Origin: Clostridiales bacterium
Lineage (GTDB): Bacteria; Bacillota; Clostridia; Oscillospirales; Ruminococcaceae
Length of the DNA: 53,719 nt
NCBI GenBank assembly: GCA_012519635.1
Contig: JAAYPV010000041.1
Coordinates: forward strand, 1-53,719
Direction: 5' to 3'
In this document: positions 6,614 to 47,770 of the stretch, piece by piece
Layout of the letters: each line of letters opens with the position of its first letter
Numbering within the stretch: position 1 is the first letter of the stretch
Translations under genes and position numbers: made by a program
Notes under the pieces: generated by a model
Told to the model about the DNA's origin: nothing
Databases searched by the model: none
What the model saw: only the letters and a program-made list of their open reading frames with translations

Positions 6614-6618
6614 TTATT

Positions 6619-8595
<1,977 letters not shown>

Positions 8596-8601
8596 CTAGC
8601 T

Positions 8602-8862: not shown

Positions 8863-8863
8863 T

Positions 8864-9979: not shown

Positions 9980-9980
9980 A

Positions 9981-10202: not shown

Positions 10203-10240
10203 AAATAACCTCCAATAGTTTATCTGATAACCAGATTAAA

Positions 10241-11344: not shown

Positions 11345-11439
11345 TTTATTAAATCCTTTCTATTCTTTAAAGTAATCTATTATTATACAATCAGTAGAAC
11401 TTTAAATTATACTGACTGTAATCATTTGTCTTTAATAAA

Positions 11440-11880: not shown

Positions 11881-12011
11881 TGTTGTATTCGGTTAAAAGA
11901 TTTAGAGAATTTTTTTTACATTTATCTGTAATAATTTTAACTCTAACTGTATAATTATATATTATTTACCAATATTATCTTTTTATACTATGTATAAAGA
12001 TATAAAGATAA

Positions 12012-12518: not shown

Positions 12519-12535
12519 TAACTATCCTTTTTTAC

Positions 12536-13897
12536 TTATTTTCCTTTATCCCTTATATTTTTAATTATATCCTCAACAAGCTCCTTTAGGTTAGGGTCTT
12601 TTTTTATACCTGCTGTCACATTGTTGATTGCATAAACTATTGTAGAATGGTCACGACCTCCAAATTCAAGTCCAATTGACTGAAGAGGCATCTGTGTAAT
12701 TTCACGAACAACATAAATAGCAACTTTTCTTGCATTAGAAATTTGTGATGAACGCTTGCTTGAGCGAATGTCATCAGGAGAAACTCCATAGACATTTGAA
12801 ACCTCGCCTATAATTTTTTCAACAGTAATAGGAATAGGCTGGTCATCATTTAAAATATCACGAATAACGCTTTGTGCCATAGAAATAGAAGGCTGACTTC
12901 CTGCAAGATGCTTAAGTGCCTTTAGTTTTTTTACAGCTCCCTCAAGCTGTCTTATATTGGTTTTCAGTCTGTTTGCAATAAATTCAGCAACCTCATCAGG
13001 AATATTTAACTCAAGAAGTTCAGCTTTTCTTTTTATTATTGCAATTCTTGTTTCGTAGTCAGGTGTTGAAACATCGGCAATAAGTCCACCCTCAAACCTT
13101 GAACGAATACGCTCAGCAAGGGTTTTTATATCCTTTGGAGGCTTGTCCGAAGTCAGAACAATCTGTCTGCCCTGTTGATGAAGTTTATTGAATGTATGGA
13201 AAAACTCCTCCTGAGTACTTTCCTTTCCGGCAATGAACTGTACATCATCTACAAGAAGGACATCAGCGTTACGGTACTTATCATGGAATTGAGTTGTATC
13301 CTTTCTCATTTTAATTGCATCAATAAGTTCATTTGCAAAGGCCTCACCACTTACATAGATGATATTGAGAGAAGAATTATTTTTTCTCATTTCATTAGCA
13401 ATTGCAGTAATAAGGTGAGTTTTGCCAAGACCTGATGGTCCATGAATAAAAAGAGGATTGTATGTACTTCCTTTAGATGCACCCTTTGCAACAGCAGTAC
13501 AGGCAGCATATGCAAACTCATTTGACCTACCTACAATAAAGGTGTCAAAGGTATAGTCATATTCAGCTGTTTCAAAGCTCTTTTCAAGTTGAAGATGCTT
13601 TTGTTCAATTTCCTCAAAATCAACATGGTGGTTGGAGGGTTCTTCTGTTTTTGTATTAATTACGATATTGACATCGAATCCAAGTATGGTTTTAAAAGCC
13701 TCCTTAAGAAGCTTTTCGTAATTATTTATGATTACACCCTTCTGAAAATCTGATTGCACCTGGAAAATTGCATTGGCACCGTCCAGCTTTTGGGGCTCAA
13801 GAGCATTAATCCAGAGCTTTAAAGCAACTTCACCTATATCCCCGACATCTATGCAATATTTCTTCACAAGTTCAAATACATCCTCAAAGGAATTCAT
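12536..13897 (-). CDS. dnaA: Chromosomal replication initiator DnaA
   Basis: YTFDTFIVGRSNEFAYAACTAVAKGASKGSTYNPLFIHGPSGLGKTHLITAIANE; C-terminal GGRDHSTIVYAINNV. Confidence 0.98.
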   Translation of the reverse strand: MNSFEDVFELVKKYCIDVGDIGEVALKLWINALEPQKLDGANAIFQVQSDFQKGVIINNYEKLLKEAFKTILGFDVNIVINTKTEEPSNHHVDFEEIEQKHLQLEKSFETAEYDYTFDTFIVGRSNEFAYAACTAVAKGASKGSTYNPLFIHGPSGLGKTHLITAIANEMRKNNSSLNIIYVSGEAFANELIDAIKMRKDTTQFHDKYRNADVLLVDDVQFIAGKESTQEEFFHTFNKLHQQGRQIVLTSDKPPKDIKTLAERIRSRFEGGLIADVSTPDYETRIAIIKRKAELLELNIPDEVAEFIANRLKTNIRQLEGAVKKLKALKHLAGSQPSISMAQSVIRDILNDDQPIPITVEKIIGEVSNVYGVSPDDIRSSKRSSQISNARKVAIYVVREITQMPLQSIGLEFGGRDHSTIVYAINNVTAGIKKDPNLKELVEDIIKNIRDKGK

Positions 13898-14056
13898 ACC
13901 TTTGCCTCCTTAAAACCTAAATACAATAATAATCCCATGATAACCGAAAAAAGTAAAGTAGAATATTCAATCAAAAAATAGCTTCAGAAACACATTACTT
14001 ACTTATTATAAAAGCATATTTATTATATCATATAAAGTATAATTTTGCAAGAGGGA

Positions 14057-14087
14057 TTTTCCACATCAAATTAAAAAATGTTGAAAA
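14057..14087. promoter_or_regulatory. Two DnaA-box-like sites upstream of dnaA
   Basis: TTTTCCACA at 14057-14065 (8/9 to TTATCCACA) and TGTTGAAAA at 14079-14087 in the dnaA/rpmH divergent region. Confidence 0.5.
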
Positions 14088-14168
14088 CATTATCATTGAG
14101 TTTAAAATACTTTTATTTTATAAATGGTACAATTATGTCTATTGTTTGAAATTTTTTTTGTAAATTGC

Positions 14169-14197
14169 TTGACATGCGGGATTTATTAGTATATAAT
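14169..14197 (+). promoter_or_regulatory. Consensus sigma-A promoter for rpmH operon
   Basis: TTGACA-17 bp-TATAAT. Confidence 0.9.
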
Positions 14198-14346
14198 CAT
14201 TTTTGTAGGGTTGTACGCATACAGTATTGTATTTGCTTAATTTATAAATACCAAAAGTGTTTATATAATAAAATATAAGTTAATAATGTATTATATACCC
14301 AAAATTTAAGTATAAGTTTTGATTAATGAAAGGGGGCTTTAAGGTC

Positions 14347-14481
14347 ATGAAAAGAACTTATCAGCCAAAAAAATTGCATAGAAAAAAAGAGCATGGCTTC
14401 AGAAAAAGAATGTCAACTAGAAGCGGGCGTAAGGTTTTAGCTCGCAGAAGAGCAAAAGGCAGAGCTAGATTGACTCATTAA
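14347..14481 (+). CDS. rpmH: 50S ribosomal protein L34
   Basis: [44 protein letters not shown]; 44 aa, too short for the supplied ORF track. Confidence 0.98.
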
Positions 14482-14487
14482 TCAAGT

Positions 14488-14508
14488 GACCACTTATGTG
14501 GTCTTTTT
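14488..14508 (+). terminator. Short hairpin plus U-tract between rpmH and rnpA
   Basis: GACCAC TTAT GTGGTC TTTTT. Confidence 0.7.
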
Positions 14509-14615
14509 GTACTTTATTTTTTAGTAAATCCTTTAATTATAAGGATAAAACTTATGCTCAAATCAGGCGTGTCTTTGCACACGCCTACAAAAATATAATT
14601 AGAAAATTAGTGATT

Positions 14616-14960
14616 ATGCTATATACGGAGATGTTGAATGATAATAAGATTTTCCTTTTGCTTTATAAAAAAGGAAAACCTATAATTTCTAAATGGCTTG
14701 TTATCTATGTGAGAAAAAATAATTTACCTTATAATCGGCTCGGTATTACTGCCGGGAAAAAGGTCGGTAATGCCGTTAAAAGAAATCGTGCAAAGCGTGT
14801 TATAAGACAGGTTTATCGTGAAAATGAATTGAAATTACCTATCGGAATTGATATTGTCATTGTCGCAAGAGCTTGCTTACCCGATGTCAAATCAAATGTT
14901 GTAAGTAAATTTTTTTCAGATAGGGTAATTAAAGAGATAATTAAAGCTGTTAAGAATTGA
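14616..14960 (+). CDS. rnpA: Ribonuclease P protein component
   Basis: [68 protein letters not shown]; start trimmed from ORF 14496 (GTG at 14610 is an alternative start). Confidence 0.93.
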
Positions 14961-14964
14961 TTTT

Positions 14965-15207
14965 ATGAAAAAAATATTTATTTTATTTATAAAGTGTTAC
15001 CAGAAATTTATATCACCACTAAAACCACCTTGCTGTCGGTTCTATCCGACCTGTTCTAATTATGCTGTGCAGGCAATTCAAAAATTTGGTGTTTTTAGGG
15101 GTATATGGCTTGCTTTGTGCAGGGTTGTAAGATGCAACCCATGGAATAAAGGTGGCATTGATTATGTGCCTGATAATTTTCACTTTTTTAGGAATAAAAA
15201 TAAATAA
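14965..15207 (+). CDS. yidD: Membrane protein insertion efficiency factor YidD
   Basis: [59 protein letters not shown]. Confidence 0.96.
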
Positions 15208-15245
15208 TTATATATAATTATGGAATGTAACCTTTGGAGGATTTG

Positions 15246-16379
15246 ATGAATACACTATATACAATTATAGGTAAGCCATTTGGTTTAATAATGTGGTTAA
15301 TTTACTCAATTGTAAAAAATTATGGAATCTCAATTATTCTATTTACAATCATTACAAGAATAATAATGTTCCCCATAAGCTTTAAACAGCAAAAAAATAT
15401 TGTAAGAACAAGAGCTTTGGCTCCAAAGATGGAAGCAATAAAAAAGGCGTATGCTAATAATCCCCAGAGAATTCAGGAGGAACAGCTTAAACTCCAGCAG
15501 CAGGAGGGTATAAACCCTATGGCAGGCTGTTTGCCAATGCTTTTACAGTTTTTTTTCTTGTTCGGTATTCTTGATGTAGTTTATAAACCGCTTACTCATA
15601 TTTTGAGAATAAGCAGCAGTACAATAAATAAAGCAAAGGAAATTGTTAGTAATGCGGTTCCGAATACTTTCACAAAGAATGACTTGCGTGAGGAACTTAA
15701 AATTTTATCCTATTTCAGAGAAAATAAGTCCGAATTTAGTTCAATTGACGGCTTTATTGATAAATTATCTGGTTTTAATAGTAGTTTTTTTGGCATAGAT
15801 TTGGGTGCAACACCACAATTTAAGCCTGAGGTGTGGAATAAAACAGCAATATTATTGTTTTTGATACCTGTTATCGCAGGTGTAAGCCAGCTTGTTTTAA
15901 CATTTATTACTCAAAGAATTCAGAAAAAAAATACTCCTGATATGCCTTCTATGGGGGCAATGAATCTTTTATTGTATATAATGCCTGTTTTTTCAGTTTG
16001 GTTTGCTTTTAAGGTTCCATCTGGAGTAGGCTTTTATTGGATAATTTCTACTATTGTGGCAATAATACAGACAATTGCTCTGGACGCATATTTTACTCCC
16101 GAAAGAGTGGATATTATCTCCGAAAAGGAAAAGGAAAAGGCTAAAAATAAAAAACCAAGTGTTTTAATGCAAAAGATGATAGAACAACAAGAACTGCTCA
16201 ATCAGCAAAATGCTGGAAATGGAAGCAAAAATATAGCCTCAAACAGGGTTAGTTATTCTGATGGTGCAGAAAAAATGTCACGCGCAGAGCTAAATGCATA
16301 TAATCGTGAACTATTAAAAGAGGCTCGTAGAAGAATGGCTGAAAAATATGGTGATGAGATAAGCGACGATAAGGATTAG
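15246..16379 (+). CDS. yidC: Membrane protein insertase YidC/OxaA
   Basis: GISIILFTIITRIIMFPISFKQQKN; NPMAGCLPMLLQFFFLFGILDVVYKPLTHIL; ATG after ggagg (ORF track began at an upstream TTG). Confidence 0.95.
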   Translation: MNTLYTIIGKPFGLIMWLIYSIVKNYGISIILFTIITRIIMFPISFKQQKNIVRTRALAPKMEAIKKAYANNPQRIQEEQLKLQQQEGINPMAGCLPMLLQFFFLFGILDVVYKPLTHILRISSSTINKAKEIVSNAVPNTFTKNDLREELKILSYFRENKSEFSSIDGFIDKLSGFNSSFFGIDLGATPQFKPEVWNKTAILLFLIPVIAGVSQLVLTFITQRIQKKNTPDMPSMGAMNLLLYIMPVFSVWFAFKVPSGVGFYWIISTIVAIIQTIALDAYFTPERVDIISEKEKEKAKNKKPSVLMQKMIEQQELLNQQNAGNGSKNIASNRVSYSDGAEKMSRAELNAYNRELLKEARRRMAEKYGDEISDDKD

Positions 16380-16398
16380 CAGATTGGAGGAAAGCTTT

Positions 16399-17166
16399 AT
16401 GGAAGGGATTTTTACAGGTAAAACTATTGAAGAAGCTGTTCAAGCAGCTGCTCAGAGTTTTGGGGTCGAAGAAAATAAGATTTTATATGAGGTTCTTGAA
16501 GAGCCTAAGAAGGGGTTTCTCGGTATTCTAAAAAGTGAGGCTAAAATTAAGGCTGTCTATAACCCTACAAAAATAGAAATTGTCGTTGATTATTTAAAAA
16601 ATATCTTGAAAAATTTGGATTTAACCTGTGAAGTTACGGTTTCAGAACATGATGATTATACATTGATTAATATTGAGGGTGATGATGTTGGTGCAATTAT
16701 TGGAAGAAGAGGCGAAACCCTTGATGCTATTCAGTACCTTGTTTCAATGGTTGCTAACAGAGATAGCCATGATTATCGTAGAATCGTGCTTGACAGTGGG
16801 GGATATAGGGAGAAACGCAAGAATACGCTTATCGAACTTGCTACAAAGATTTCTAATTCAGTATTGAAAAAAGGTCGTTCATCAGCTCTAGAGCCAATGA
16901 ACCCTTATGAGAGAAGAATTATTCACTCAACTGTTTCTGAAATTGAGGGAGTTTATTCGCGCTCAATCGGTGAGGAGCCATATAGAAAAGTTGTAATTTA
17001 TCCAGTTATCAAAAAACCAGAAAGACCTCGTGGTGAAAGAAAAAATTACAGAAACTCTGAGGGGCCTCGTTCGCTTGATTTGAAAACAAGCTTTGAAAGG
17101 GATTACAAAAAGCCAATTCCAGATAAGGATATTGGTTCAGGACTTTATGGAAAAATTGATATCTAA
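16399..17166 (+). CDS. jag: Jag/KhpB RNA-binding protein (Jag_N, KH, R3H)
   Basis: EGIFTGKTIEEAVQAAAQSFGVEENKILYEVLEEPKKGFLGI; KH GDDVGAIIGRRGETLDAIQYLVS; R3H EPMNPYERRIIHSTVSEIEGVYSRSIGEEPYRKVVIYP. Confidence 0.95.
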   Translation: MEGIFTGKTIEEAVQAAAQSFGVEENKILYEVLEEPKKGFLGILKSEAKIKAVYNPTKIEIVVDYLKNILKNLDLTCEVTVSEHDDYTLINIEGDDVGAIIGRRGETLDAIQYLVSMVANRDSHDYRRIVLDSGGYREKRKNTLIELATKISNSVLKKGRSSALEPMNPYERRIIHSTVSEIEGVYSRSIGEEPYRKVVIYPVIKKPERPRGERKNYRNSEGPRSLDLKTSFERDYKKPIPDKDIGSGLYGKIDI

Positions 17167-17191
17167 TTTTCAAAATATTACTGAGTGAGTG

Positions 17192-17228
17192 AAAGCACTT
17201 GTTTTAATCATAAACAAGTGCTTTTATG
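17192..17228. terminator. Hairpin terminator after jag
   Basis: AAAGCACTTGTTT taatcat AAACAAGTGCTTT T. Confidence 0.8.
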
Positions 17229-17258
17229 TGATTTATATGTAAAATTTAGGAGGAAAAA

Positions 17259-18623
17259 ATGTCCACGATTGCTGCTATTTCTACTCCAAATGCTGTTGGA
17301 GGAATTTCGGTTATAAGAATTTCGGGTGAAAATTCAATTGAAATCGCTGAGAAAATTTTTAGGTCCACTAGTGGTAAGAAAGTTGCTGAAATGAACGGTT
17401 ATACCTGTGCTCATGGCATTGTAGTGGATAGGGACGGCTCTCAGATTGATGAGGTGATTTTATCTGTTTTCAAGTCACCAAAAAGCTATACGGGTGAAGA
17501 TGTTGTCGAAATTTCATGTCATGGCGGAATTTATATTACAAAGAAAATTTTAAGGCTTGTGCTGGAAAGTGGTGCATCCCTTGCAGAAGCTGGCGAGTTC
17601 ACAAAAAGAGCATTTCTTAATGGAAAGTTGTCGCTGACACAGGCTGAGGCAGTTATTGACTTAATAAGTGCAAGTGGACAAAATGAGTTTAAATATGCCA
17701 TTGCGTTGAAGGATGGTGCAATTTTCAGACGAATTGATAAGATAAAAAGCAGAATTATTTCTGTTTTGGTTGATTTATCAGCATGGGCTGATTTTCCTGA
17801 GGACGATATTCCAGAGGTTGACCCTGATAATTTATTGAAAACACTTAAAGATATCTATCATGAGTTGGATGAAACTAACAAAACATATGATTATGGTAGG
17901 ATTATTCGGGAGGGCATAAATACTGTGATTGCGGGTAAGCCCAATGTCGGAAAATCAACGCTTATGAACTGTCTGAGCGGATTTGAAAGAAGTATCGTGA
18001 CTGATATTGCTGGCACAACAAGAGATATTGTTGAGGAAACAGTTCAGCTTGGTGATATTAAGCTAAGGCTTTCGGATACAGCAGGAATAAGAAATACAGA
18101 TGATATTGTTGAAAATATTGGAGTAAACCTTGCATTTAAGAGGATTTATGAGGCTGATTTAGTGCTTGCATTATTTGATAATTCTGTAGAATTGACTGAT
18201 GAGGATTTACAGCTGATAAAGAAATTGTCTGATAAAAAGGTGGTTGCAATAATAAATAAATCCGATGAAAAATCAATGATTGACAGGCGTGTGATTGACG
18301 ATAACTTTAAATATGTAGTGGAAATTTCCGCAAAGAATAATGATGGAATAGATAGACTAGTTGACGCTGTAAATAAGATGTTTATTCGTGAGGATATTGA
18401 TGCCGAAAAGGGAATTATTGCTAATGAAAGACAAAAAAACTGCATTGTTAAGGCTCAAAGCCTTGTAGAACAAAGCATAAATGCCCTTGAACAGGGTGAA
18501 CTGCTTGATGCTATAACAGTTTTACTTGATGAGGCAGCAGGATACCTTCTTGAACTAACAGGTGAAAAGGTTTCTGATACTGTTATTGATGAGGTATTTT
18601 CAAAGTTCTGTATTGGGAAATAG
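17259..18623 (+). CDS. mnmE: tRNA modification GTPase MnmE
   Basis: STIAAISTPNAVGGISVIRISGENSIEIA; GKPNVGKSTLMN; C-terminal CIGK. Confidence 0.97.
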   Translation: MSTIAAISTPNAVGGISVIRISGENSIEIAEKIFRSTSGKKVAEMNGYTCAHGIVVDRDGSQIDEVILSVFKSPKSYTGEDVVEISCHGGIYITKKILRLVLESGASLAEAGEFTKRAFLNGKLSLTQAEAVIDLISASGQNEFKYAIALKDGAIFRRIDKIKSRIISVLVDLSAWADFPEDDIPEVDPDNLLKTLKDIYHELDETNKTYDYGRIIREGINTVIAGKPNVGKSTLMNCLSGFERSIVTDIAGTTRDIVEETVQLGDIKLRLSDTAGIRNTDDIVENIGVNLAFKRIYEADLVLALFDNSVELTDEDLQLIKKLSDKKVVAIINKSDEKSMIDRRVIDDNFKYVVEISAKNNDGIDRLVDAVNKMFIREDIDAEKGIIANERQKNCIVKAQSLVEQSINALEQGELLDAITVLLDEAAGYLLELTGEKVSDTVIDEVFSKFCIGK

Positions 18624-18644
18624 TACTCTTTGGAGGTTAAATTT

Positions 18645-20531
18645 ATGAGTTTTGAGATGGGAAAATATGATGTAATTGTTGTAGGTGGCGGACATGCAGG
18701 TGTTGAAGCAAGCCTTGCTGCTGCACGACTTGGCTGTAAAACAGCAATGTTTACCATATCACTTGACCAGATTGCCAATTTACCATGTAATCCGTCGATA
18801 GGTGGAACCGCAAAAGGACATCTTGTTCGTGAAATAGATGCATTGGGTGGAGAAATGGGTAGAGCGGCTGATGCCTGCCTGATTCAAAGCCGTATGCTGA
18901 ACAGGGGCAAAGGACCAGCTGTTCATAGCTTGCGTGCTCAGGCTGACAGAGTTAAATACCATAACTATATGAAAAGAGTTTGTGAATTACAGGAAAATCT
19001 TGATATAAAACAGGCTGAAATAAAGGAGATTATTGTTGAAAATGATGTGGTAAAGGGTGTAATCACATCACTTGGTGCTATCTATTATGCAAAAACTGTA
19101 ATCATTTCAACAGGTACATACTTAAGAAGCACAATTCATATTGGGGAGTCTTCTTACGATAGTGGACCTGATGCCGCACTTCCAGCAAAGGGACTTGATG
19201 AGTGTTTAAAAAAGCATGGAATTGAGTTGAGGAGATTTAAAACAGGTACTCCGTGCAGGGCACACAGACGCAGTATTGATTTCAGTGTTCTTGAGGAGCA
19301 AAAGGGTGATGATGATATTGTCCCATTTTCATTTGAAACAGATAAAAGTACTATAAAGAACTTAGTTTCGTGCTATACTGCATATACGAATGAGGAAACC
19401 CATAGAATTATTAAGGAAAATTTGCATAGGTCGCCGATGTATTCAGGAAGAATTGAGGGCATTGGCCCACGATACTGCCCGTCAATCGAGGACAAGGTTG
19501 TTCGATTTGCAGACAAGGAACGTCATCAGATTTTTGTTGAGCCGATGGGTCTTGATACAGATGAATGTTATTTGCAGGGAATATCCACCTCTCTTCCAGA
19601 GGATGTTCAGATAAAATTTTTGAGAACAGTTAAGGGATTTGAAAACATTGAAATTATGCGTCCTGCATATGCTATTGAGTATGAATGCTGTGACCCCACA
19701 CAATTGCGTTCCACACTTGAATTTAAGACGATTCGTGGACTTTTTGGTGCAGGGCAGTTCAACGGAACCTCTGGCTATGAGGAGGCCGCTGCACAGGGGC
19801 TTGTTGCTGGAATTAATGCTGCTAATCTTGTTTTAGGAAGGGAGATGCTAATTCTTGACAGGGCAAGTTCATATATAGGCACGCTAATTGATGATTTGGT
19901 TATAAAAGGTTGCCAGGACCCTTATAGAATGATGACATCAAGGAGTGAATATAGGCTTATTTTGCGTCAAGATAACGCCGATCAGCGCCTTATGCCGATA
20001 GGATATAAAATAGGATTGGTTAGCGAGGAGAGATATAACAGGCTTCAGCAGAAAATTGAAGAAATTGAACAGGAGTTAAAGCGTGTTAATAGGCTAAATA
20101 TTGCTCCAAGCAAGGAATTAAATAAGTTTTTGATAGAAAAAGGTACTTCGCCACTTTCCACAGGATGTAAATTATCAGATTTAATTCGCCGTCCACAGCT
20201 TGATTATTCAACACTTTCTCAATTTGATGTTGAAAGAGAAGAACATAGTGATGAGGTTTGTGAGCAAATTAATCTGAGAATTAAGTACGATGGGTATATT
20301 AAAAAACAGCTTGACCATATTGAATACATGAGAAAATTTGAATCAAAATTATTGCCACATGACTTGGACTACACACAAATACGAGGTTTGCGACTTGAGG
20401 CAATAGAAAAACTTAATAAGCTGAAGCCCGAAAATATCGGACAGGCATCTAGAATTTCAGGTGTTTCACCAGCTGATATTTCAATTTTAGTTGTATGGCT
20501 TGAGCAGAAAGGTAGGCAGAATGCTAGCTAA
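18645..20531 (+). CDS. mnmG: tRNA uridine-5-carboxymethylaminomethyl modification enzyme MnmG
   Basis: YDVIVVGGGHAGVEASLAAARLGCKTAMFTISLDQIANLPCNPSIGGTAKGHLVREIDALGGEMG. Confidence 0.97.
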   Translation: MSFEMGKYDVIVVGGGHAGVEASLAAARLGCKTAMFTISLDQIANLPCNPSIGGTAKGHLVREIDALGGEMGRAADACLIQSRMLNRGKGPAVHSLRAQADRVKYHNYMKRVCELQENLDIKQAEIKEIIVENDVVKGVITSLGAIYYAKTVIISTGTYLRSTIHIGESSYDSGPDAALPAKGLDECLKKHGIELRRFKTGTPCRAHRRSIDFSVLEEQKGDDDIVPFSFETDKSTIKNLVSCYTAYTNEETHRIIKENLHRSPMYSGRIEGIGPRYCPSIEDKVVRFADKERHQIFVEPMGLDTDECYLQGISTSLPEDVQIKFLRTVKGFENIEIMRPAYAIEYECCDPTQLRSTLEFKTIRGLFGAGQFNGTSGYEEAAAQGLVAGINAANLVLGREMLILDRASSYIGTLIDDLVIKGCQDPYRMMTSRSEYRLILRQDNADQRLMPIGYKIGLVSEERYNRLQQKIEEIEQELKRVNRLNIAPSKELNKFLIEKGTSPLSTGCKLSDLIRRPQLDYSTLSQFDVEREEHSDEVCEQINLRIKYDGYIKKQLDHIEYMRKFESKLLPHDLDYTQIRGLRLEAIEKLNKLKPENIGQASRISGVSPADISILVVWLEQKGRQNAS

Positions 20532-37847: not shown

Positions 37848-38891
37848 TTATAGCAACGCTGCCTCAACACCAATAATTTCTCCATTTTCAATATTGAAGG
37901 GATTTGAATCCCATACAACAGAATAAAGCCTGCTCCCATATTTTACAGTTCTCATTGCGTTCATCGCCTTGCATAATGGATTATTTTCAAATCCTCCCCA
38001 GATTAGAAGCGAAAAATCACTTTGTTTTGCTACTGACCGCAGAAAATCTGAGCATAAACGCTTATTATTATTCTTGACATATAAATAGGATATTACACCA
38101 AAATTTATATTGCTGTCGGGTTTTGGAAAGCTTGGATAACCGAGAATATGTGTAGGCATGTTGGATAAAATTTTGTATATACTGCCATAAGAGCACATAT
38201 AATACTGCTTTGTCGCCTGCTGGTTGCCTAAAAAACAACATGCAATTATCTCCTGCCCTTTTCTTACACAGTAAAAATTTTTGTCCCCAAACCCAACATA
38301 ATTATAATTCACAGGTGTAAATGAGAGCCTTCGAAAATATGTGTTGACTATATCCTCAAAGCCAGTAAGATTATTTTTTTCTAGCTCAAGAATATTCTTG
38401 CCGCCATGAAAGCAATAGGTAGTATAATGCCCTAAATAGTGATATTTGGGCATATTTTTGTGTCCTTTTTCAAGCAGAGCAATAGCATTTTTATTATCAT
38501 CAAGAATAGTTGTGTAAAAATAATCGCAGTCAGATATGTTCTCATATAGAAACTGATATGCCTTTGCGATAAACCGAATTTTTTTCTGATAGTCAGAGTG
38601 TATTTTAAGTCCAGTCAGATAGCCACATTTTCGTATTTCGCCATTTACATATTCATCACGAATGACAGCACCACCGACTGCAACTACCTTGTCATATTTA
38701 TTGTCACGGATAACCATGATTTTATGATAATCGCCATCGGCTGAAAAGGAGAACAAGGGGTCAGGATTACGAAGATATTTCACACTCAATCCGCCGCTAA
38801 AATAGCCAGATTCAAACACACTGACAATGCCATCATTATCGTTTTCATCAGCAAGTTTTAATGTATATCTGTTATTTTGGAAATTCATCAA
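37848..38891 (-). CDS. GNAT-like acyltransferase
   Basis: VVAVGGAVIRDEYVNGEIRKCGYLTGLKIHSDYQKKIRFIAKAYQFLYENISDCDYFYTTILDDNKNAIALLEKG; GNAT-type layout; overlaps upstream gene by 20 nt. Confidence 0.6.
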   Translation of the reverse strand: MMNFQNNRYTLKLADENDNDGIVSVFESGYFSGGLSVKYLRNPDPLFSFSADGDYHKIMVIRDNKYDKVVAVGGAVIRDEYVNGEIRKCGYLTGLKIHSDYQKKIRFIAKAYQFLYENISDCDYFYTTILDDNKNAIALLEKGHKNMPKYHYLGHYTTYCFHGGKNILELEKNNLTGFEDIVNTYFRRLSFTPVNYNYVGFGDKNFYCVRKGQEIIACCFLGNQQATKQYYMCSYGSIYKILSNMPTHILGYPSFPKPDSNINFGVISYLYVKNNNKRLCSDFLRSVAKQSDFSLLIWGGFENNPLCKAMNAMRTVKYGSRLYSVVWDSNPFNIENGEIIGVEAALL

Positions 38892-40203
38892 GATTTTCTC
38901 CTATCGGAACATTCATCTTTTGGTCTACCTCATCTCCAATTCTCAAATTCATTGCCCAGAACAACCCCCATAAAAGTGGGCTTGTCCTTCCAAGAGATGC
39001 AACGCCTCTACTTAAAATTGTTTTTGGAGATGCAAATTCTTTTCTTGCGTCACGACAAACCATGCTTAACTTTTCTGCAGAAACAAGTTTTGGATTAAAT
39101 GCAAGCTCACCATAGTTATAGCCATCAGCCAGCCACCACTTATCGTGAATAAGCCTGTTTTCCTCTTTAAGACGGCTGTAAAGTGCTGTACCAGGAAAGG
39201 GTAGGAGGTGATTGAAGGCTGTTGTATAAAACTTATGTTTTTTTGAAAACTCCACTGCCTCCCATATTGTTTTTTCGTCATCATGGTCATAGCCGAAAAC
39301 AAAGGTAGCATATATGCCTATTCCGGCGTCATGTATTCGTTTAACAAGCTCATCACGCTCACCTAAGGCATAATTAAAGGACTTGTTCATCTGGTTGAGG
39401 TTTTCTTTGTTCAAGCTTTCAAATCCTATCAGTATTATCTCACAGCCGCTTTTTTTCATGGCCTTTAGAAGTTCTGTATCCTTTGCCATAGAAAGAGTAC
39501 CCTGTCCTGCCCATTTTAGATTAAGTGGAGTTATTTTTTCAAACAGCCTCATTGCATTTTCCTTGTTTGCGACAAGGTTATCGTCAACTAAAAAAGCATA
39601 TTTGTGCTTTGAGTTTTTAATATCCTGAACAATAAGCTCATGATTTCTTGCATAGTAATGGCTGCAGTAATATTTAGATATTGCACAAAATTCACAGGAA
39701 TGACAACAGCCACGCCCTGTTTCAATCAACGATACAGGGAGATATTTCTTGCCGTCAAAAATGCCTTTATCGGGTAGAACATCATAGCTGCCTACCCCAC
39801 CGTTATAGACCTTTTTCAAGCATCTATTCTTAAAATCATCAAGCACCTGACACCATATTGTTTCAGCATTTCCAATAATTATACTATGACAATGTTCTGC
39901 TGCTTCTTCAGGACAAAGTGTTACGTGGTACCCTCCCATAACAATGGGTATACCTCTTTCACGGAACCTTTTTGCAATAGCATAGCTGCGTTTTGCAGTA
40001 TATGTTTCAACAGTTATGCAGACCAAATCCGTATTGGTATTATAATCAATAAGTTCAATTCGGTCATCAAAAAATTCCGTTTCAATCTCCTTTGGAGTAA
40101 GTGCTTTTAGGACAGCTATTGTAAGAGGCTCCATCTTCCATGTACCTATGTATTTTTCGCCCGGCTTTTTACCAATGGCAGGAAGTATAAAAGTAATTTT
40201 CAT
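38872..40203 (-). CDS. B12-binding-domain radical SAM protein (paralogue 1)
   Basis: N-terminal Rossmann-type domain with VMGGYHVTLCPEEAAEHC; radical SAM RGCCHSCEFC; C-terminal PKLVSAEKL. Confidence 0.88.
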   Translation of the reverse strand: MKITFILPAIGKKPGEKYIGTWKMEPLTIAVLKALTPKEIETEFFDDRIELIDYNTNTDLVCITVETYTAKRSYAIAKRFRERGIPIVMGGYHVTLCPEEAAEHCHSIIIGNAETIWCQVLDDFKNRCLKKVYNGGVGSYDVLPDKGIFDGKKYLPVSLIETGRGCCHSCEFCAISKYYCSHYYARNHELIVQDIKNSKHKYAFLVDDNLVANKENAMRLFEKITPLNLKWAGQGTLSMAKDTELLKAMKKSGCEIILIGFESLNKENLNQMNKSFNYALGERDELVKRIHDAGIGIYATFVFGYDHDDEKTIWEAVEFSKKHKFYTTAFNHLLPFPGTALYSRLKEENRLIHDKWWLADGYNYGELAFNPKLVSAEKLSMVCRDARKEFASPKTILSRGVASLGRTSPLLWGLFWAMNLRIGDEVDQKMNVPIGENLDEFPK

Positions 40204-40211
40204 AGTTCACC

Positions 40212-41552
40212 TCACAAAACAGGTATATCGGAATTATCGCACATAACATCTTTAGTAAACTTATGCCATTTATCCGCATATCCCTTATATCCGAAATTAA
40301 GCATGAATGATAACCAAGGACTATGCTTAAACGGAGCAAGCCTTTTGAGAATATTTAAGTTAGAATAGGTTTCACGCCATGCAAAGTCCGTACCATTTTC
40401 AAGCTGTTCCTTAGTCATTTTTTTAGGCTTGAAAACACAGTGCTGAACATCATACATTGCCCAGTTCCTTTCAATTATCCTGCCCTCTTTTTCAAGCTGG
40501 TTGTAGTAGTCCGTCTTTGGGAAGGGAGTCAGTATTGAGTATCTAGGCAGGTCAATTTTAGCTTTTATAACGGTTTCAACAGTGCGTTCGAAAACACTTT
40601 CGTCCTCCTCATCACTACCGAATGCAAAACAGCCCTGAACAAGTATTCCATTGTCATGCAGATTTTTCATAAGCTCAATATACCCATCAACTCTATTGAC
40701 ACCCTTGTTAATATATTTCTGTGATTCCTGTGTTATTGACTCAAAGCCAATCAGCAAGCCTCTGCAGCCACTTTTTCTAAATACAGTAATAAGCTCATTA
40801 TCTATTCCAACAGAGGATGTTGCCAAGCCTAACCAAATTATTTTTAAAGGAATCAAAGCTGTAAAAAGTTCTATTGCATAATTGCGATCTGCAATAAGGT
40901 TTACATCGGGAAAAAGCACATGTTTTGTATTAAGTGCTTCTATTTCAGCAACAACTTCATTTACAGGACGCTTAAAAATGGTTCGTCCGAATGCGGCAGG
41001 ATATGCACAGAAGGTGCATGGCAAGGAACAGCCTCTTACAGCCTCAACAGTATTCATTGTGATATAGCGTTTTGGATTTAGCAGGCTGCGTTTTGGAGTT
41101 GGTCTACCCTCAATGGTATAATCGCAGTTTTGATGGTATATTTTTTTATAATTACCATTAAGGTAATCGTAAATAAATTGTGGAAAGGTTTGTTCTGAAA
41201 AGCCAGTAAAAACAACATCGGCGTGAAGTGCTGCCTCCTCAGGCATTAGAGTCGGATGAACACCACCCATAAAAACTAGCTTTCCTTTTTTTCTGAAATA
41301 ATCAGCATATGCATAGCATCTTGGGGCAGTTCCTGTGATGCAGGTTATACCAATTAAGTCAGCGTCGATATCAAGAGGAATTTTTTCTGCTGTTTCATCG
41401 TAAATTCTAACCTCTGATTCGATATCATCTGGAATAAGTGCAGCAAGAGTTGTAAGCGTGAGAGGAGCGTAATGAAGGGATTTTCCAAAGCTCCCTGAAT
41501 ACCTATGCATTGCTCCCGCTGGTGCAAGTAATGCTATTTTTATCATAATCAA
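40212..41552 (-). CDS. B12-binding-domain radical SAM protein (paralogue 2)
   Basis: FMGGVHPTLMPEEAALHADVVFTG; RGCSLPCTFC; PKKMTKEQL. Confidence 0.88.
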   Translation of the reverse strand: MIMIKIALLAPAGAMHRYSGSFGKSLHYAPLTLTTLAALIPDDIESEVRIYDETAEKIPLDIDADLIGITCITGTAPRCYAYADYFRKKGKLVFMGGVHPTLMPEEAALHADVVFTGFSEQTFPQFIYDYLNGNYKKIYHQNCDYTIEGRPTPKRSLLNPKRYITMNTVEAVRGCSLPCTFCAYPAAFGRTIFKRPVNEVVAEIEALNTKHVLFPDVNLIADRNYAIELFTALIPLKIIWLGLATSSVGIDNELITVFRKSGCRGLLIGFESITQESQKYINKGVNRVDGYIELMKNLHDNGILVQGCFAFGSDEEDESVFERTVETVIKAKIDLPRYSILTPFPKTDYYNQLEKEGRIIERNWAMYDVQHCVFKPKKMTKEQLENGTDFAWRETYSNLNILKRLAPFKHSPWLSFMLNFGYKGYADKWHKFTKDVMCDNSDIPVL

Positions 41553-43069
41553 TCTGTTCCTTTCCTAAACCATTCTCCCCAGCCATCTCTGTTGCTAAGG
41601 TGGCATGGCTTTATATCCCCTAATCTCATGCCCTCCGATGTCAATCGACTTAAAATTATTTTTTCGGGTTTTCTGTCTACAACAATCACCTTAGCTTTTT
41701 CAAGCTGGCCTAGACTTCTGCAATAGCTGTAATGAAAGCTCTCACAAAGAGCGTTGTCAATAATATCATCGGTTACATTTTTATTTGTGGTATATAGGCA
41801 ATAATAATTTTTTTCTGGTGCAAGAAAATAAAAGCTGTCATTTATTCCGATTGATTTTGCAACCTTATTTACAAACTCCTCTGTCAGCTTTTCACCAAAT
41901 AAATCAGAAGTAATTCCTTTTCGTCGCAAGAATCTTATAAGCGGTGGTCTGTCCTTAAAGGTTTCAAGCACCTCAACAATATCACCTATGCAATACCTGT
42001 AAAAACCGCCCCCTGTTGTAACTATAACCTCATATTCACCCTTTTTAAGCTGATGAGCAAGATAAATTTTATCATTAGCAGTATTCCTGAACTCAAAAAA
42101 ATGTGAGTAAATGCTTAATCTACTGCCCTGTTCATTTACAAGGGGGAATGATATAAAGCATTCCGTTGCAAGAAGTCCCTTTGGCTGGATATACACGCCA
42201 GGAAACAGTTTTTCAATATCAGAAATATAATCCTTAGCGCTACCGTCAGCCCAACAGCTTATAATTTTAAGATTTGGAAAGATTAAGTTAAAATGCTTAT
42301 TTTCAAGTGCATTTAAAATTCTGTCCCTGTCCTTTTTATCAAAATCCTCTGTAAGAATATCTGCATTTTCTTTTATAAAATTGCAGAGTAATGAAAGAAA
42401 GGTCGGATTCCATACCGATATAAGTGAAAGATTTGAGCATTTTAAAAGCTGTTTGGCAGTATGCATATAAAAGCTGTTCATATCGTCTGAAAATTTAACT
42501 GATGAATCAACAGCAAAGACTCTTTCCATTATCCTCTTTTCAATTTTGCCAAAGTATTCAGAGTCCTCCTCAAAGCCTATCGGGATACCGCAACTTGTAT
42601 AGCTTTTTCTTGATGTTACAGGAGTTATGGACCAGTAGCTTTTTCCGTCGCAAACTCCCTCAATATTTGAGTAGACATCATAAAGCCATGCCTTTATTCC
42701 CCTTTGAAACTCCTTTTTAAGCGTATCAGTATAGGGTATCAGCTTTTTTTCATTGGCGGAACCGCTTGTAAGCTCAAAAAGGAGTATTTTCTCGGTGGTG
42801 AGGATTTTTTTCTCACCATCGCAGATTCTGTCGATATAGGGTTTGTAGTCGTTATAGGTAGAAAGTGGAACATTTTCGGCAAAATCATTATAGTTTCTTA
42901 TATTCATAAAGCTGTATTTTTTGCCATATTCAGTATCTAAATTTTTTTGCAGCAGATTTATTAAATAATCAGTCTGTACCTTTTCTATATCACAAGCCAG
43001 TGAAAACCTTTTATACTCATTCTTATACAAGAGTCTGCAGACATTGTTCAGCAACCTAATCATTATCAA
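41549..43069 (-). CDS. GH3-family (auxin-responsive promoter type) acyl-adenylating / amide-forming enzyme
   Basis: LLFELTSGSANEKKLIPYTDTLKKEF (ATP-binding motif); GGGFYRYCIGDIVEVLETFKDRPPLIRFLRRKG (GH3 signature); YGKKYSFMNIRNYNDFAENVPLSTYNDYKPYIDRI. Confidence 0.85.
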   Translation of the reverse strand: MIMIRLLNNVCRLLYKNEYKRFSLACDIEKVQTDYLINLLQKNLDTEYGKKYSFMNIRNYNDFAENVPLSTYNDYKPYIDRICDGEKKILTTEKILLFELTSGSANEKKLIPYTDTLKKEFQRGIKAWLYDVYSNIEGVCDGKSYWSITPVTSRKSYTSCGIPIGFEEDSEYFGKIEKRIMERVFAVDSSVKFSDDMNSFYMHTAKQLLKCSNLSLISVWNPTFLSLLCNFIKENADILTEDFDKKDRDRILNALENKHFNLIFPNLKIISCWADGSAKDYISDIEKLFPGVYIQPKGLLATECFISFPLVNEQGSRLSIYSHFFEFRNTANDKIYLAHQLKKGEYEVIVTTGGGFYRYCIGDIVEVLETFKDRPPLIRFLRRKGITSDLFGEKLTEEFVNKVAKSIGINDSFYFLAPEKNYYCLYTTNKNVTDDIIDNALCESFHYSYCRSLGQLEKAKVIVVDRKPEKIILSRLTSEGMRLGDIKPCHLSNRDGWGEWFRKGTD

Positions 43070-43760
43070 ACATCATTCCCAGTATACGCTTTTTTATAAC
43101 AGCTTTATCTATCTTAGCAAGACAGGCAAGATCGTTGCCCTTATAATGCTCGGGATTTCTCTTACAAAAATATGCAATATCCTTGTTTTTAAGTAAATGC
43201 TCATCTATGTCCGCAACACCTTTTTTAAGCTTATCCTTAACAGTTTTATATTCAATAACGCCGGTGTCCTTATTGTACTCATCAGGATACAACATTTGTG
43301 CATAGGCATCAATTATACTTTGCTCATAGGCAGGAGTCTCTGTTTTGTAATTGGGATAAAATTCAGTCCAGAACAAGGGCATAATGCGGTAGGTTTTATA
43401 TCCCTTGCAAATCAAAAACCAGTAGAACTCCCCGAACCTTTCTGCGTATTCAAACCAGTACTTTGCCCATACACGAAAAAGCTCTGTACTGCCCCAATAA
43501 TCCTTATGTATAATTGTGTCACCTGAAAACATACCAGGCACTATTTTTCCATTAACATTCACATCAAGCAGCTTTTGAGTTGTGAAGCCAACCAAGCCTT
43601 CTGTTTCATGGTAAAGCGTCAGACAATAATCCTTGTCATAAAAATCTCGTTCAAAAACCTTTCTGTCGGTATTATCATAAAATTCAGACATAAGTGAGTA
43701 CATTCTTGTAATATCACTTTCGTTATATTCACTTATAGGTCTTATAATTCCTTTCAGCAT
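43056..43760 (-). CDS. GNAT-like acyltransferase / hypothetical enzyme
   Basis: MLKGIIRPISEYNESDITRMYSLMSEFYDNTDRKVFERDFYDKDYCLTLYHETEGLVGFTTQKLLDVNVNGKIVPGMFSGDTIIHKDYWGSTELFRVW resembles a GNAT N-terminal half; overlaps the GH3 gene by 14 nt. Confidence 0.55.
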   Translation of the reverse strand: MLKGIIRPISEYNESDITRMYSLMSEFYDNTDRKVFERDFYDKDYCLTLYHETEGLVGFTTQKLLDVNVNGKIVPGMFSGDTIIHKDYWGSTELFRVWAKYWFEYAERFGEFYWFLICKGYKTYRIMPLFWTEFYPNYKTETPAYEQSIIDAYAQMLYPDEYNKDTGVIEYKTVKDKLKKGVADIDEHLLKNKDIAYFCKRNPEHYKGNDLACLAKIDKAVIKKRILGMMFDND

Positions 43761-43772
43761 ACTATTCCTCCG

Positions 43773-45107
43773 TTATTTCAAACCAAATTTCATTCCCTGT
43801 TTTTTGAACACCTCTTTCTTGAAAAGAGGATTATATAAAAGATATGTAAAAAACCTATAAGGAGTACGCATGTTTGTTCGTGGCTCAATTGCTCTTTTGA
43901 TAATAGAGGACCAGCTGTTAAAGCGTCGTCTGCAATCAAAGGAAATCCCTGTAAGTTCATCGGGACTCATATTCTTAGGTAAAAAACTGGCATGATTAAA
44001 TCTGTAATCAGTATGCAACCACCACTTTTTATCGTATAAAAGTCGCCCCTCACTTTCCAGCTTGCTATATAAGGGTGTGTTTGGATATGGCATAAGTATA
44101 TTAAACGCTGCAAAGGTAAATTTGTTTTTTATTGCAAAATCACAGGTTGCTTTAATTGATTCAATGGTATCGCCATCATGTCCGACAGTGAATGCTGCCC
44201 AAGTCTGAAGTCCCCATTCTCTTAGTTGTTTTATTTCCGATTTATACATATCGCTTGATGGTGTCGAATTTGTATTCTTATTCATTTCTGCAATACAATT
44301 TGCTGATATAGACTCAAAGCCTATAACAAGTCCAAGACAGCCACTTTTAATCATAAGCTGCATAAGCTCCTTATCGTGGAGCATATCCAGACTGCCCTGA
44401 CTTACCCAGTGTACTTTTAATGGAATCAAGGCACGAAAAAGTTCCTTTGCCTTTTCTTTATTGCATACGATATTGTCGTCCACAAAGAAAAGAAGCTTTC
44501 TTTTTTGGGATTTTATTTCAGTTATAACATCCTCAACAGGCCTGCAGTAATGATTTGCGTTAAAATAAACAGATGAGGCGCAAAAGCTACATTTGTTACT
44601 GCACCCTCTTGAAAACTGAAGAAGGGTTATCGGAAGATAGCCTTTGCCCTCAAAGATATCACGCCTTGTTATGACATTTTTCTGAGGATATTCGGGCTGA
44701 ACTGGCGTATATCTTTTTTTAAGCTCGCCCCTTTTGCAGTCCTCAATTACATTCTCCCAGACAGGCTCTGCATCGCCGATTATAATGCTGTCGCAATGCT
44801 CAGCAACCTCATTAGGTATCAGCTTGACATGCATACCTCCCATAACCACTTTAACTCCCCTGCTGCGAAATTCGGCACTGATTTCATATGCCCGTCTTGC
44901 AGTAAAGGTTTCAACAGTTATTGCAACAAGGTCGGTCGGTTCATCATAGGGGATTTTCTCCATGCGGTCATCATACATAACAACTTCGACATCTTTTGGG
45001 GTAAGTGCGGCAAGTATTCCAAGCTGTAAAGGCTCCATACGCCCCTCATCCACATAGAGGCTATGTTCACGCCGCCCTATATTCGGCTTAATCAACATCA
45101 GTTTCAT
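43773..45107 (-). CDS. B12-binding-domain radical SAM protein (paralogue 3)
   Basis: VVMGGMHVKLIPNEVAEHCDSIIIGDAEPVWE; RGCSNKCSFC; PKNMSPDEL. Confidence 0.88.
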   Translation of the reverse strand: MKLMLIKPNIGRREHSLYVDEGRMEPLQLGILAALTPKDVEVVMYDDRMEKIPYDEPTDLVAITVETFTARRAYEISAEFRSRGVKVVMGGMHVKLIPNEVAEHCDSIIIGDAEPVWENVIEDCKRGELKKRYTPVQPEYPQKNVITRRDIFEGKGYLPITLLQFSRGCSNKCSFCASSVYFNANHYCRPVEDVITEIKSQKRKLLFFVDDNIVCNKEKAKELFRALIPLKVHWVSQGSLDMLHDKELMQLMIKSGCLGLVIGFESISANCIAEMNKNTNSTPSSDMYKSEIKQLREWGLQTWAAFTVGHDGDTIESIKATCDFAIKNKFTFAAFNILMPYPNTPLYSKLESEGRLLYDKKWWLHTDYRFNHASFLPKNMSPDELTGISFDCRRRFNSWSSIIKRAIEPRTNMRTPYRFFTYLLYNPLFKKEVFKKQGMKFGLK

Positions 45108-46407
45108 TTAATATACCTCCAAGAATTTGTCCTTGCTTTGAGCGTATTTCCTTCTGTGAGATAAAGTTTACAAGCATAAATACAAAAAAGTTCCAGGGAA
45201 TAAAGTTAATTGGATTTGAAAAAAGTCTTTTAATTATACAGCCAAATGAATAAAATCTTTTGCGTATAGCAAGACAGTTATCCCGTAGCTGTTCAGGCGT
45301 CATGTTTTTTGGTATATATGCAGTTTCGCCATATCTGTATTTGTCAGACATCCACCACTTTTTGTAAATAAGTCTGTTCTCGCTTTCCAGACGCTTATAT
45401 ACCTTTGTACCGGGCATTGGTATCAGTGGGTTAAAGTTTGTTACAGCAAGACGGTTTCTTACTGCAAAATCAAAGGTCCGATTGAATACCTCCGTATTAT
45501 CATTATCATAGCCGAAAACAAAGGTGCCATAAATGAGCATTCTGTGCTTATATATTCTCTTGATAACCTCATCATAGCTTTCAATAGCCTTGTTTGCCGT
45601 TTTGTTCATCTTATCAAGGTTATACGCATTGAGTGTTTCAAAGCCTAATAAAACTAGAAAGCAGCCAGCTTTTTTCATTTTCCTTAACAAGTCATCATTT
45701 CTCGCAACATCCATACTGATTTGGCACGCCCACTTTTTCTTAAGTGGAGCAATTGCTCTGAACAGTTCAATAGCGGATTTTTCATCGTAGAAAAGATTAT
45801 CATCAGCAAAGAAAATGATTTTCTCTTTAGCTTTTTTCAGTTCCCTTACAACAGCATCAACTGATTTTCTTCGGACACATTTATACATAGTCTTAATTGA
45901 ACAAAAATCGCAATTGAATTTACAACCCCTTGAGGTTTGGTAAACTCCCACTCCATAGTATTTATGCTTATAAATTGAAGTATCCTCCTCGAAATATTTA
46001 ATAGGAAAGCTCTCGTCGGATATGTATTTTTTCTTAATAGCTCCGTTCTTGTAATCTAAAAGGAATTTTCCCCAAGTATCTTCTGCGTCGCCGATAATTA
46101 CTGAATCAGCGTATTTCAAAGCCTCATCGGGCATTACTGTCGGATGAAAACCGCCCATAACAATAATATTATTTTCCTTTTTATATTTTTTTGAAAGTAT
46201 ATATGCTCGTTTAGCCGTATATGTTTCGACTGAAAACGCAATAATATCAGAATCTATTGTATCAGGTAGCTTTTCGACACGCTCATCTATGAAATCTATT
46301 TCAAACTCACTTGGAGTAAGGCTTTTGATTATTCCAAACAGTATTGGCTTCATCGCATCAGTGCTTATGTATTCGAACATATTTAATCGTATAAAGGTTA
46401 TTTTCAC
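45088..46407 (-). CDS. B12-binding-domain radical SAM protein (paralogue 4)
   Basis: VMGGFHPTVMPDEALKYADSVIIGDAEDTWG; RGCKFNCDFC; PKNMTPEQL. Confidence 0.88.
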   Translation of the reverse strand: MKITFIRLNMFEYISTDAMKPILFGIIKSLTPSEFEIDFIDERVEKLPDTIDSDIIAFSVETYTAKRAYILSKKYKKENNIIVMGGFHPTVMPDEALKYADSVIIGDAEDTWGKFLLDYKNGAIKKKYISDESFPIKYFEEDTSIYKHKYYGVGVYQTSRGCKFNCDFCSIKTMYKCVRRKSVDAVVRELKKAKEKIIFFADDNLFYDEKSAIELFRAIAPLKKKWACQISMDVARNDDLLRKMKKAGCFLVLLGFETLNAYNLDKMNKTANKAIESYDEVIKRIYKHRMLIYGTFVFGYDNDNTEVFNRTFDFAVRNRLAVTNFNPLIPMPGTKVYKRLESENRLIYKKWWMSDKYRYGETAYIPKNMTPEQLRDNCLAIRKRFYSFGCIIKRLFSNPINFIPWNFFVFMLVNFISQKEIRSKQGQILGGILNETDVD

Positions 46408-47705
46408 TTTTTATTCCTCTTATCAATTCCTAAAAATTTAAATCCGATATTTGCGCCTAAAAGTACAAAAACATATGGCTTTTTACGCCATACGGAATGG
46501 AATGTTCGCTTAAACACTCTACGCCATTTAAAAGCCTCTTTCCATACTCTCATGTATATCTCCTCAAGTCTCTCGGGAGTCATGTTTTTGGGCTGAAAAA
46601 CAGCATAATTTTGAGTATATCTGCTCCAGTCATCAGTAATAATTCTGCCGGATTTTTTATATTCCTCATAAAATTCAGTACCCGGATAGGGTGTAAGAAT
46701 TGCGAACCTACATAAATCAAGTCCAAGATAGTCGATATATTGTGGAATCTTTATTAATTCCTCCTCTGTATCATGGTCAAATCCAAGCACAAAGCAACCA
46801 TTTACCGCAATTCCATGTGAATGTATATTATCGATAACTCCCTTGTATTTATCAGGCTTATTACTATGCTTTGTAGCTGAGGCAAGCGATTGTGCGCTAA
46901 ACGACTCAAATCCGACAAGAACAGCTCTGCATCCACTTTTATATGCTAGCTGCATTAACTCATCATCATAACCGAAACTCACCGTTGCATCAGCTGCCCA
47001 TAGTATTTTCAAAGGCTTTATGGCGTTCAGAAGTGATATTGCATATTCACGGTCTCCAAAGAAATTTGGGTCATAGAAGACCACCATTTTTGAGTTCAGT
47101 GCTTTAAGTTCGTTGACAACATCTTCAACAGGTCTTGGGTCGCTTTTCCACATTGTTCTCATTGAGCAGTATTTACAGCTGTTATTACAGCCTCTATTTG
47201 CGATTACAGCAGGAATTTTAAGCTTCTTTTTCTCAGTTATTTTATCCCTTGCAGGAATCCTATACATTGCTGAACACACATTATCGTTTCTATAAAATCT
47301 TTTGGGGTTACCATTTATAAAATCATTGATAAACTGGGGTAAAGAGATTTCAGCAGGTCCTGATATAACAGTATCACAGTGCATTGCAACTTCGTCTGGA
47401 AGAGCTGTTGCATGATAGCCGCCACAGGCAGTATAGGTGCCTCTTTTTTTGAATTCTCTGCAGTGCTTGTAAGCGGTTTGGCATGAGGAGGTTTCAAATG
47501 AAAGGAGGACGAGGTCATATTTTTCCTTATCGTAGAGTACCTGCTGGGAGTTTTCGTCGATTGTATCAATTTTGCTGAAAGCGTTTTTGGGGATTAGCGA
47601 GTATATGGTGGGGAGGGTTAGTGATGGGTAGGCGAACAGGCTTGAAAAGCGATTTCGGTAGGATTTTTCGTTTTCGTTCCAGCAGTGAATGAGGAGGAGT
47701 TTCAT
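46404..47705 (-). CDS. B12-binding-domain radical SAM protein (paralogue 5)
   Basis: ACGGYHATALPDEVAMHCDTVISGPAEISLPQF; RGCNNSCKYC; PKNMTPERL. Confidence 0.88.
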   Translation of the reverse strand: MKLLLIHCWNENEKSYRNRFSSLFAYPSLTLPTIYSLIPKNAFSKIDTIDENSQQVLYDKEKYDLVLLSFETSSCQTAYKHCREFKKRGTYTACGGYHATALPDEVAMHCDTVISGPAEISLPQFINDFINGNPKRFYRNDNVCSAMYRIPARDKITEKKKLKIPAVIANRGCNNSCKYCSMRTMWKSDPRPVEDVVNELKALNSKMVVFYDPNFFGDREYAISLLNAIKPLKILWAADATVSFGYDDELMQLAYKSGCRAVLVGFESFSAQSLASATKHSNKPDKYKGVIDNIHSHGIAVNGCFVLGFDHDTEEELIKIPQYIDYLGLDLCRFAILTPYPGTEFYEEYKKSGRIITDDWSRYTQNYAVFQPKNMTPERLEEIYMRVWKEAFKWRRVFKRTFHSVWRKKPYVFVLLGANIGFKFLGIDKRNKK

Positions 47706-47740: not shown

Positions 47741-47770
47741 ATTATATCATAAGGTGGGGGTGAATGGCAA
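47741..47770 (-). promoter_or_regulatory. Candidate promoter of the radical SAM/GH3 operon
   Basis: On the minus strand TTGCCA-18 bp-TATAAT, about 35 bp upstream of the first start codon. Confidence 0.5.

Follow-up and report, generated by a model that had tools for sequence, protein, structure and literature searches.

A multi-phylum operon of B12-type radical SAM enzymes, an N-myristoyltransferase-like protein and a GH3 enzyme that probably encodes a small-molecule or lipid pathway

The minus strand of contig JAAYPV010000041.1 from a Clostridiales bacterium (assembly GCA_012519635.1; Ruminococcaceae) encodes, at positions 37848–47705 of the 53,719-nucleotide (nt) stretch analyzed here (the window), an operon of eight open reading frames (ORFs) of 347, 443, 446, 506, 234, 444, 439, and 433 amino acids (aa), denoted g1 to g8 along the coordinates. 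The junctions from g1 to g8 measure −20, +8, −4, −14, +12, −20, and −4 nt, so that the ORF list reproduces the positions and the overlaps or gaps of at most 12 nt reported in the first-pass annotation of this DNA; some of the first possible starts are TTG, and the true starts might therefore lie a few codons inside. Five genes, g2 (38872–40203), g3 (40212–41552), g6 (43773–45107), g7 (45088–46407), and g8 (46404–47705), encode B12-type radical S-adenosylmethionine (SAM) enzymes; g1 (37848–38891) encodes a putative N-myristoyltransferase (NMT)-like N-acyltransferase with a double GNAT fold, g4 (41549–43069) a GH3-family enzyme predicted to adenylate acids and form amides, and g5 (43056–43760) a single-GNAT acyltransferase-like protein. 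A strong sigma70-like match, TTGCCA-18-TATAAT (47741–47770, minus strand; 11 of 12 matches), located 36 nt upstream of g8, is likely to be the single promoter of the operon; across the region, four such sites were observed versus 2.4 by chance. The operon is flanked by typA on one side (assigned by family model) and ppk1 on the other (named from its sequence), and its GC content is that of the surrounding DNA. The eight proteins contain no carrier, condensation or ketosynthase Pfam domain of nonribosomal peptide synthetases (NRPS) or polyketide synthases (PKS), the operon encodes no transporter or regulator, and its gaps leave no space for a precursor-peptide gene; the initial view of a biosynthetic operon outside the standard classes is thus retained.

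All five radical SAM proteins announced in the first-pass annotation possess an intact CxxxCxxC motif (CCHSCEFC, CSLPCTFC, CSNKCSFC, CKFNCDFC, and CNNSCKYC) and match PF04055 above the cut-off; they share 30–41% pairwise identity and retain a GGxH...G pattern. The B12-binding domain PF02310 passes the cut-off in g3 and g7 and falls under it in g2, g6, and g8; B12 use is likely. The best match of the set among solved structures, and hence its nearest solved relative by profile, is the apramycin enzyme AprD4 (6fd2; E = 2.5e-21), whose NCBI family bears the name radical SAM diol-dehydratase, but this match is restricted to the SAM core and, with a best score of 63 bits against a curated cut-off of 500, does not amount to family membership. 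The best family-model matches, with the same domain order, are to the HpnJ/BchE subfamily, but all five proteins score far under the equivalog cut-offs for HpnJ (hopanoid; at best 95 of 577 bits) and BchE (87 of 481). The ladderane-type model TIGR04072, a B12-type family named for lipid biosynthesis, is matched by all five, but with low scores (at best 69 of 360 bits), and the operon lacks fatty-acid synthase genes; PhpK was rejected as well (96 of 600 bits), and TsrM, CysS, and TokK are distant profile matches.

A maximum-likelihood tree of 97 radical SAM proteins (quick method, with support from the Shimodaira-Hasegawa-like approximate likelihood ratio test only) resolves four orthology groups, g2, g3, g6, and g7, each normally present in a single copy per locus and each crossing phyla. 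Group g2 splits into two subgroups, and the placement of the g3 copies from Bdellovibrionales and Elusimicrobiota has low support. The fifth, optional member, g8, is an additional g3-related protein common to Clostridia and a Citrobacter plasmid and is found also in some loci of the Butyrivibrio type described below; g6 is the best-conserved member, with 58% identity to the Citrobacter copy. Solo relatives of these enzymes on plasmids of Synechocystis, Paraclostridium, Treponema, and Aureibacter were set aside, their neighborhoods being unrelated.

The two remaining acyltransferases had been described simply as GNAT-like, and AlphaFold models bear out GNAT folds in both (pLDDT, predicted local distance difference test score, of 93.7 for g1 and 95.0 for g5); g5 has zero Pfam matches, and g1 matches PF00583 under the threshold. 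The g1 protein is, more exactly, NMT-like: its model comprises two GNAT domains in one chain, and the top solved structures retrieved by Foldseek are NMTs aligned over the full chain (E = 4e-12, template modeling score about 0.6, about 10% identity). The protein ends in ...EAALL-COOH, and this terminus is fixed; all 64 g1 orthologues share one end column, and 62 of them terminate in Leu, even though g1 is the least conserved of the eight families (mean identity 34%), whereas in the other seven operon families the end column is common to 16–74% of the proteins. The g1 relatives of Acinetobacter, Burkholderia arboris, and four further Burkholderiales loci have the same ending, E/D-x-x-x-L/I/V. 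In NMT, the catalytic base is the C-terminal carboxylate (PMC7048800), a mode of catalysis described as unique to NMT within the GNATs (PMC4964394, PMC7048800), and the invariant end of g1 is what would be expected if its C-terminal carboxylate were catalytic. Because human NMT1 truncated at the C-terminus retains turnover through another carboxylate (PMC7048800), we only infer such a role for g1. Eukaryotic NMTs thus resemble g1 in the full-length double-GNAT fold and in a fixed C-terminus with a free carboxylate; in contrast to them, g1 is bacterial and is encoded inside a biosynthetic operon.

The GH3 assignment holds firmly (PF03321, E = 8e-49; PF23571, E = 2e-13), with the N-terminal and central domains present and the nucleotide-binding motifs kept. 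In a tree of 35 GH3 proteins built with a careful method, the operon GH3s, together with those of Acinetobacter and Burkholderia, form one clade (support 99/98), separate from other GH3s of the bacterial family to which the window belongs. The only NCBIfam match of the operon GH3 is OlsH, a bacterial GH3 that couples fatty acids to ornithine (PMC12493201); identity with this lyso-ornithine lipid synthetase was rejected, at 48.4 bits against a curated cut-off of 620. The OlsH/OlsI ornithine-lipid pathway of planctomycetes (PMC12493201) resembles the operon in that a bacterial GH3 activates an acid and makes an N-acyl amino acid; unlike that pathway, the operon has no OlsI-type hydrolase and includes four or five radical SAM enzymes and an NMT-like protein.

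When genomes were scanned in full with the g6 alignment, 80 related loci emerged, or 81 with the added Citrobacter plasmid copy; a related-locus search with the single GH3 protein returned zero loci. Fifty of the 81 are free-flanked, with the sequence running on for at least 1.5 kb past the last member at either end, and the counts of gene combinations below refer to these 50. The 80 loci come from many Clostridia and also from Synergistota, Chloroflexota, Bdellovibrionota, Gamma-, Alpha-, and Betaproteobacteria, Planctomycetota, and Elusimicrobiota, with one from a metagenome-assembled genome (MAG) labelled Micrococcales. The members lie on one strand in all 50 loci, and at least four radical SAM genes are present in 48, the same 48 that encode g1; the operon is no chance array and is recognizable in at least six phyla besides Bacillota. 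The first-pass annotation had named a lack of co-occurrence in a neighborhood search as one way to refute its reading; this refutation fails because the gene set co-occurs elsewhere. The annotation had proposed to search Clostridia, but the system reaches several other phyla. The system is widespread but rare, given that a g6 orthologue was detected in 3 of the 391 genomes of the class; GH3 was not found in a genome of the same genus that is 80% complete and in which the contig with ppk1 stops 298 bases from that gene. The copy in Citrobacter portucalensis, with GH3, five radical SAM enzymes, two GNATs, a PAP2 protein, and a fatty acid desaturase, indicates that the operon can ride a mobilizable plasmid; no near copy of this cluster was found in Escherichia coli genomes.

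Comparison of the loci reveals a modular organization. Type A loci (the window, Ruminococcus flavefaciens, Peptoclostridium litorale, and others) combine the radical SAM enzymes with g1, g5, and GH3, whereas type B loci (Butyrivibrio NC2007 and other Lachnospiraceae) combine them with g1 and a permease of the Trp_Tyr_perm family (PF03222; araaP model match under the cut-off), without GH3 and g5. The near-obligate pairing of g5 with GH3 is apparent from the counts: both are present in 31 loci, neither in 18, and g5 alone in one. The two make up a module that is separable from the rest, and no permease-type locus has GH3: 31 loci have GH3 only, 14 the permease only, 5 neither, and none both, so that the permease is present in 14 of the 19 loci that lack GH3; in 8 of the 9 permease-type genomes searched, GH3 was found nowhere in the genome. 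Type C loci, in several Pseudomonadota, add a fatty acid desaturase, PAP2, and a transmembrane-anchored SnoaL-like protein, often along with a 220-aa membrane protein lacking a Pfam match. A multi-pass membrane family of 210–250 aa adjoins the cassette in eight loci from several phyla (for example, L120, 9207–9890; L096, 17009–17665; L110, 8024–8668; L114, 11245–12000), with no Pfam match in the two members scanned. Two Bdellovibrionales loci (L107, 6174–7352; L112, 4849–6009) carry, immediately upstream of the cassette, a different extra radical SAM gene (PF04055 and Fer4_12), and the Bdellovibrionales copies also encode an MMPL-family protein. In a planctomycete MAG (L115, 17854–20917), a desaturase-like gene comes after the cassette, along with DUF3419 and methyltransferase genes that resemble the betaine-lipid pair BtaA/BtaB; seen at this one locus, the latter were not taken to indicate what the head group is.

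The acyl-amide genes also occur without the radical SAM cassette. In the order to which the Rhodocyclales copy belongs, 17 of 399 genomes contain a strong GH3 match, and 11 regions were read; all of the nine best encode g5 and a Rieske oxygenase. Of these nine, g1 is encoded in four, a fatty acid desaturase in three, and a radical SAM enzyme of the operon kind in none. Burkholderia arboris likewise has g5, g1, a fatty acid desaturase, GH3, and a Rieske oxygenase, again without radical SAM genes. In Burkholderiales, then, the GH3/g5 pair adjoins Rieske oxygenases in place of radical SAM enzymes, an exchange for which anaerobic BchE and the aerobic, di-iron AcsF provide a precedent. Since oxygenases stand where other loci have the cassette, at least some of the radical SAM steps may be oxidations, by analogy with these neighborhoods, although the products of the two versions may differ. 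The first-pass annotation noted that B12-type radical SAM enzymes methylate or rearrange unactivated carbons. With AprD4 as the nearest solved relative and Rieske and di-iron oxygenases in the same position in Burkholderiales, methylation is no more likely here than oxidation or rearrangement. In one Burkholderiales GH3/Rieske locus (L161, 12862–15176), genes for a fatty acid hydroxylase, an unassigned 409-aa protein, and a 2Fe-2S ferredoxin stand in a row. In Acinetobacter baumannii (L037, 4350–12029), relatives of g5, GH3, and g1 are interleaved with HlyD, MFS, and outer-membrane channel genes, with no radical SAM enzymes of the operon kind.

Taken plainly, the operon probably encodes a multi-step small-molecule or lipid pathway. 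For the more specific reading, that it leads to a fatty-acylated, amino-acid-derived small molecule or lipid, we propose the following route, conjectural in its order of steps, substrates, reaction types, and product, and built on the observed gene set, folds, motifs, orthology, g5–GH3 pairing, and module swaps; we consider the balance for this route to be about even. The g1 protein, with its own C-terminal carboxylate as the base, would join a long acyl chain, from acyl-coenzyme A or acyl carrier protein, to an amine, for example an amino acid. The radical SAM enzymes g2, g3, g6, and g7, with the optional g8, would then act serially, in an oxygen-free manner, on unactivated carbons of the chain or the head group, the candidate chemistries being hydroxylation-like oxidation, dehydration, C–C bond formation, and C-methylation. 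GH3 would subsequently adenylate a carboxylate and couple a second amine, and g5 might provide a paired acyl-transfer or capping step. The lipid-type companions, namely the desaturase, PAP2, and SnoaL-like protein of Pseudomonadota and the MMPL protein of Bdellovibrionales, are in line with this proposal, as are the ornithine acylation by OlsH and the aromatic-amino-acid-type permease of most GH3-less loci. In the earlier scheme, an acid is radically modified and then amidated or acylated; the absence of GH3 and g5 from Butyrivibrio-type loci, which have the permease instead, implies that GH3 amidation is not needed in every version. More generally, the earlier reading was right in large part but had missed the NMT fold of g1, the modularity, and the oxygenase swap.

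Several observations weigh against the proposed route. Being found without radical SAM enzymes in Acinetobacter and Burkholderia, g1, g5, and GH3 may form an independent unit. The sequence support for the NMT likeness is weak (profile E of about 0.7), the likeness consisting in the fold and the C-terminus, and the acceptor of g1 could be a peptide or protein. The lead toward aromatic amino acids is weak because the permease is only distantly araaP-like. Finally, neither the operon nor any of 12 related loci was found to have a cobalamin riboswitch.

Among the alternatives, it is possible, if less probable, that the product is not a membrane lipid but a signal or antibiotic secreted in soluble form, with g1, g5, and GH3 assembling an exported acylated amide that the radical SAM enzymes decorate. 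The patchy presence in the class and the failure to find GH3 in the same-genus genome, the plasmid carriage in Citrobacter, and the efflux genes beside the Acinetobacter set all fit this view, but neither the operon nor most loci encode an exporter, and the recurrent extras are the desaturase, PAP2, and membrane proteins. That the cassette consists of methylcobalamin-dependent methyltransferases performing serial C-methylation, yielding an acyl chain or head group that is branched or methylated, is rather doubtful: the B12-binding-type N-termini, the distant matches to TsrM, CysS, and TokK, and the presence in the same genome of further B12-binding proteins and of one cobalamin riboswitch located away from the operon are compatible with it, but the best matches, AprD4, HpnJ, and BchE, are not simple methylases, and the Rieske enzymes in the same position in Burkholderiales relatives oxidize.

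Many B12-type radical SAM enzymes act on ribosomally synthesized and post-translationally modified peptides (RiPPs), and the fold and C-terminus of g1 might mark a true bacterial N-myristoyltransferase in a hidden RiPP system in which the radical SAM enzymes modify a peptide. We regard this as improbable, given the lack of room for a precursor gene, the failure to find a recurrent conserved small gene around the operon (ORFs of at least 90 aa were surveyed), and the small acids that known GH3 enzymes use as substrates. The chance placement of tandemly duplicated radical SAM genes next to unrelated acyltransferases could account for five paralogues of one subfamily, but it is refuted by the conservation of the cassette across phyla, as four orthology groups nearly always accompanied by g1, and is accordingly exceedingly improbable.

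Outside the operon, the window includes a replication-origin region (3266–20531), with gyrA, gyrB, recF, dnaN, and dnaA (12536–13897) on the minus strand and rnpA-like, yidC, mnmE, and mnmG genes on the plus strand; the GC skew changes sign near 12.5–15 kb. A 168-aa ORF (12012–12518, minus strand), DUF2726-like by eye, occupies an unusual insertion place between dnaA and dnaN.

Searches of the open-access literature found no description of this gene set or of clusters like it, and the system appears to be undescribed, although its parts belong to known enzyme families. We tentatively suggest an undescribed, multi-phylum class of pathways in which an NMT-like enzyme and its GH3/GNAT partners would make an acyl-amide core. 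In one version, a cassette of four or five radical SAM enzymes would functionalize this core; in the other, that of Burkholderiales, Rieske oxygenases would do so, alone or together with a di-iron desaturase, providing oxygen-independent and oxygen-dependent routes to related products. If so, it would be unusual for a single small-molecule route to contain four near-obligate radical SAM steps, and g1 would be a bacterial enzyme, encoded in a biosynthetic operon, that shares the fold of NMT and its C-terminal-carboxylate logic. The swap between radical SAM enzymes and oxygenases could allow the radical reactions to be deduced from the oxygenase version. The system can be tested, since it has cultured carriers (Ruminococcus flavefaciens 007c, Butyrivibrio sp. 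NC2007, and Peptoclostridium litorale DSM 5388), and the approximately 80% identity of the radical SAM enzymes between related Clostridia genera makes it likely that the product is conserved among gut and rumen bacteria.

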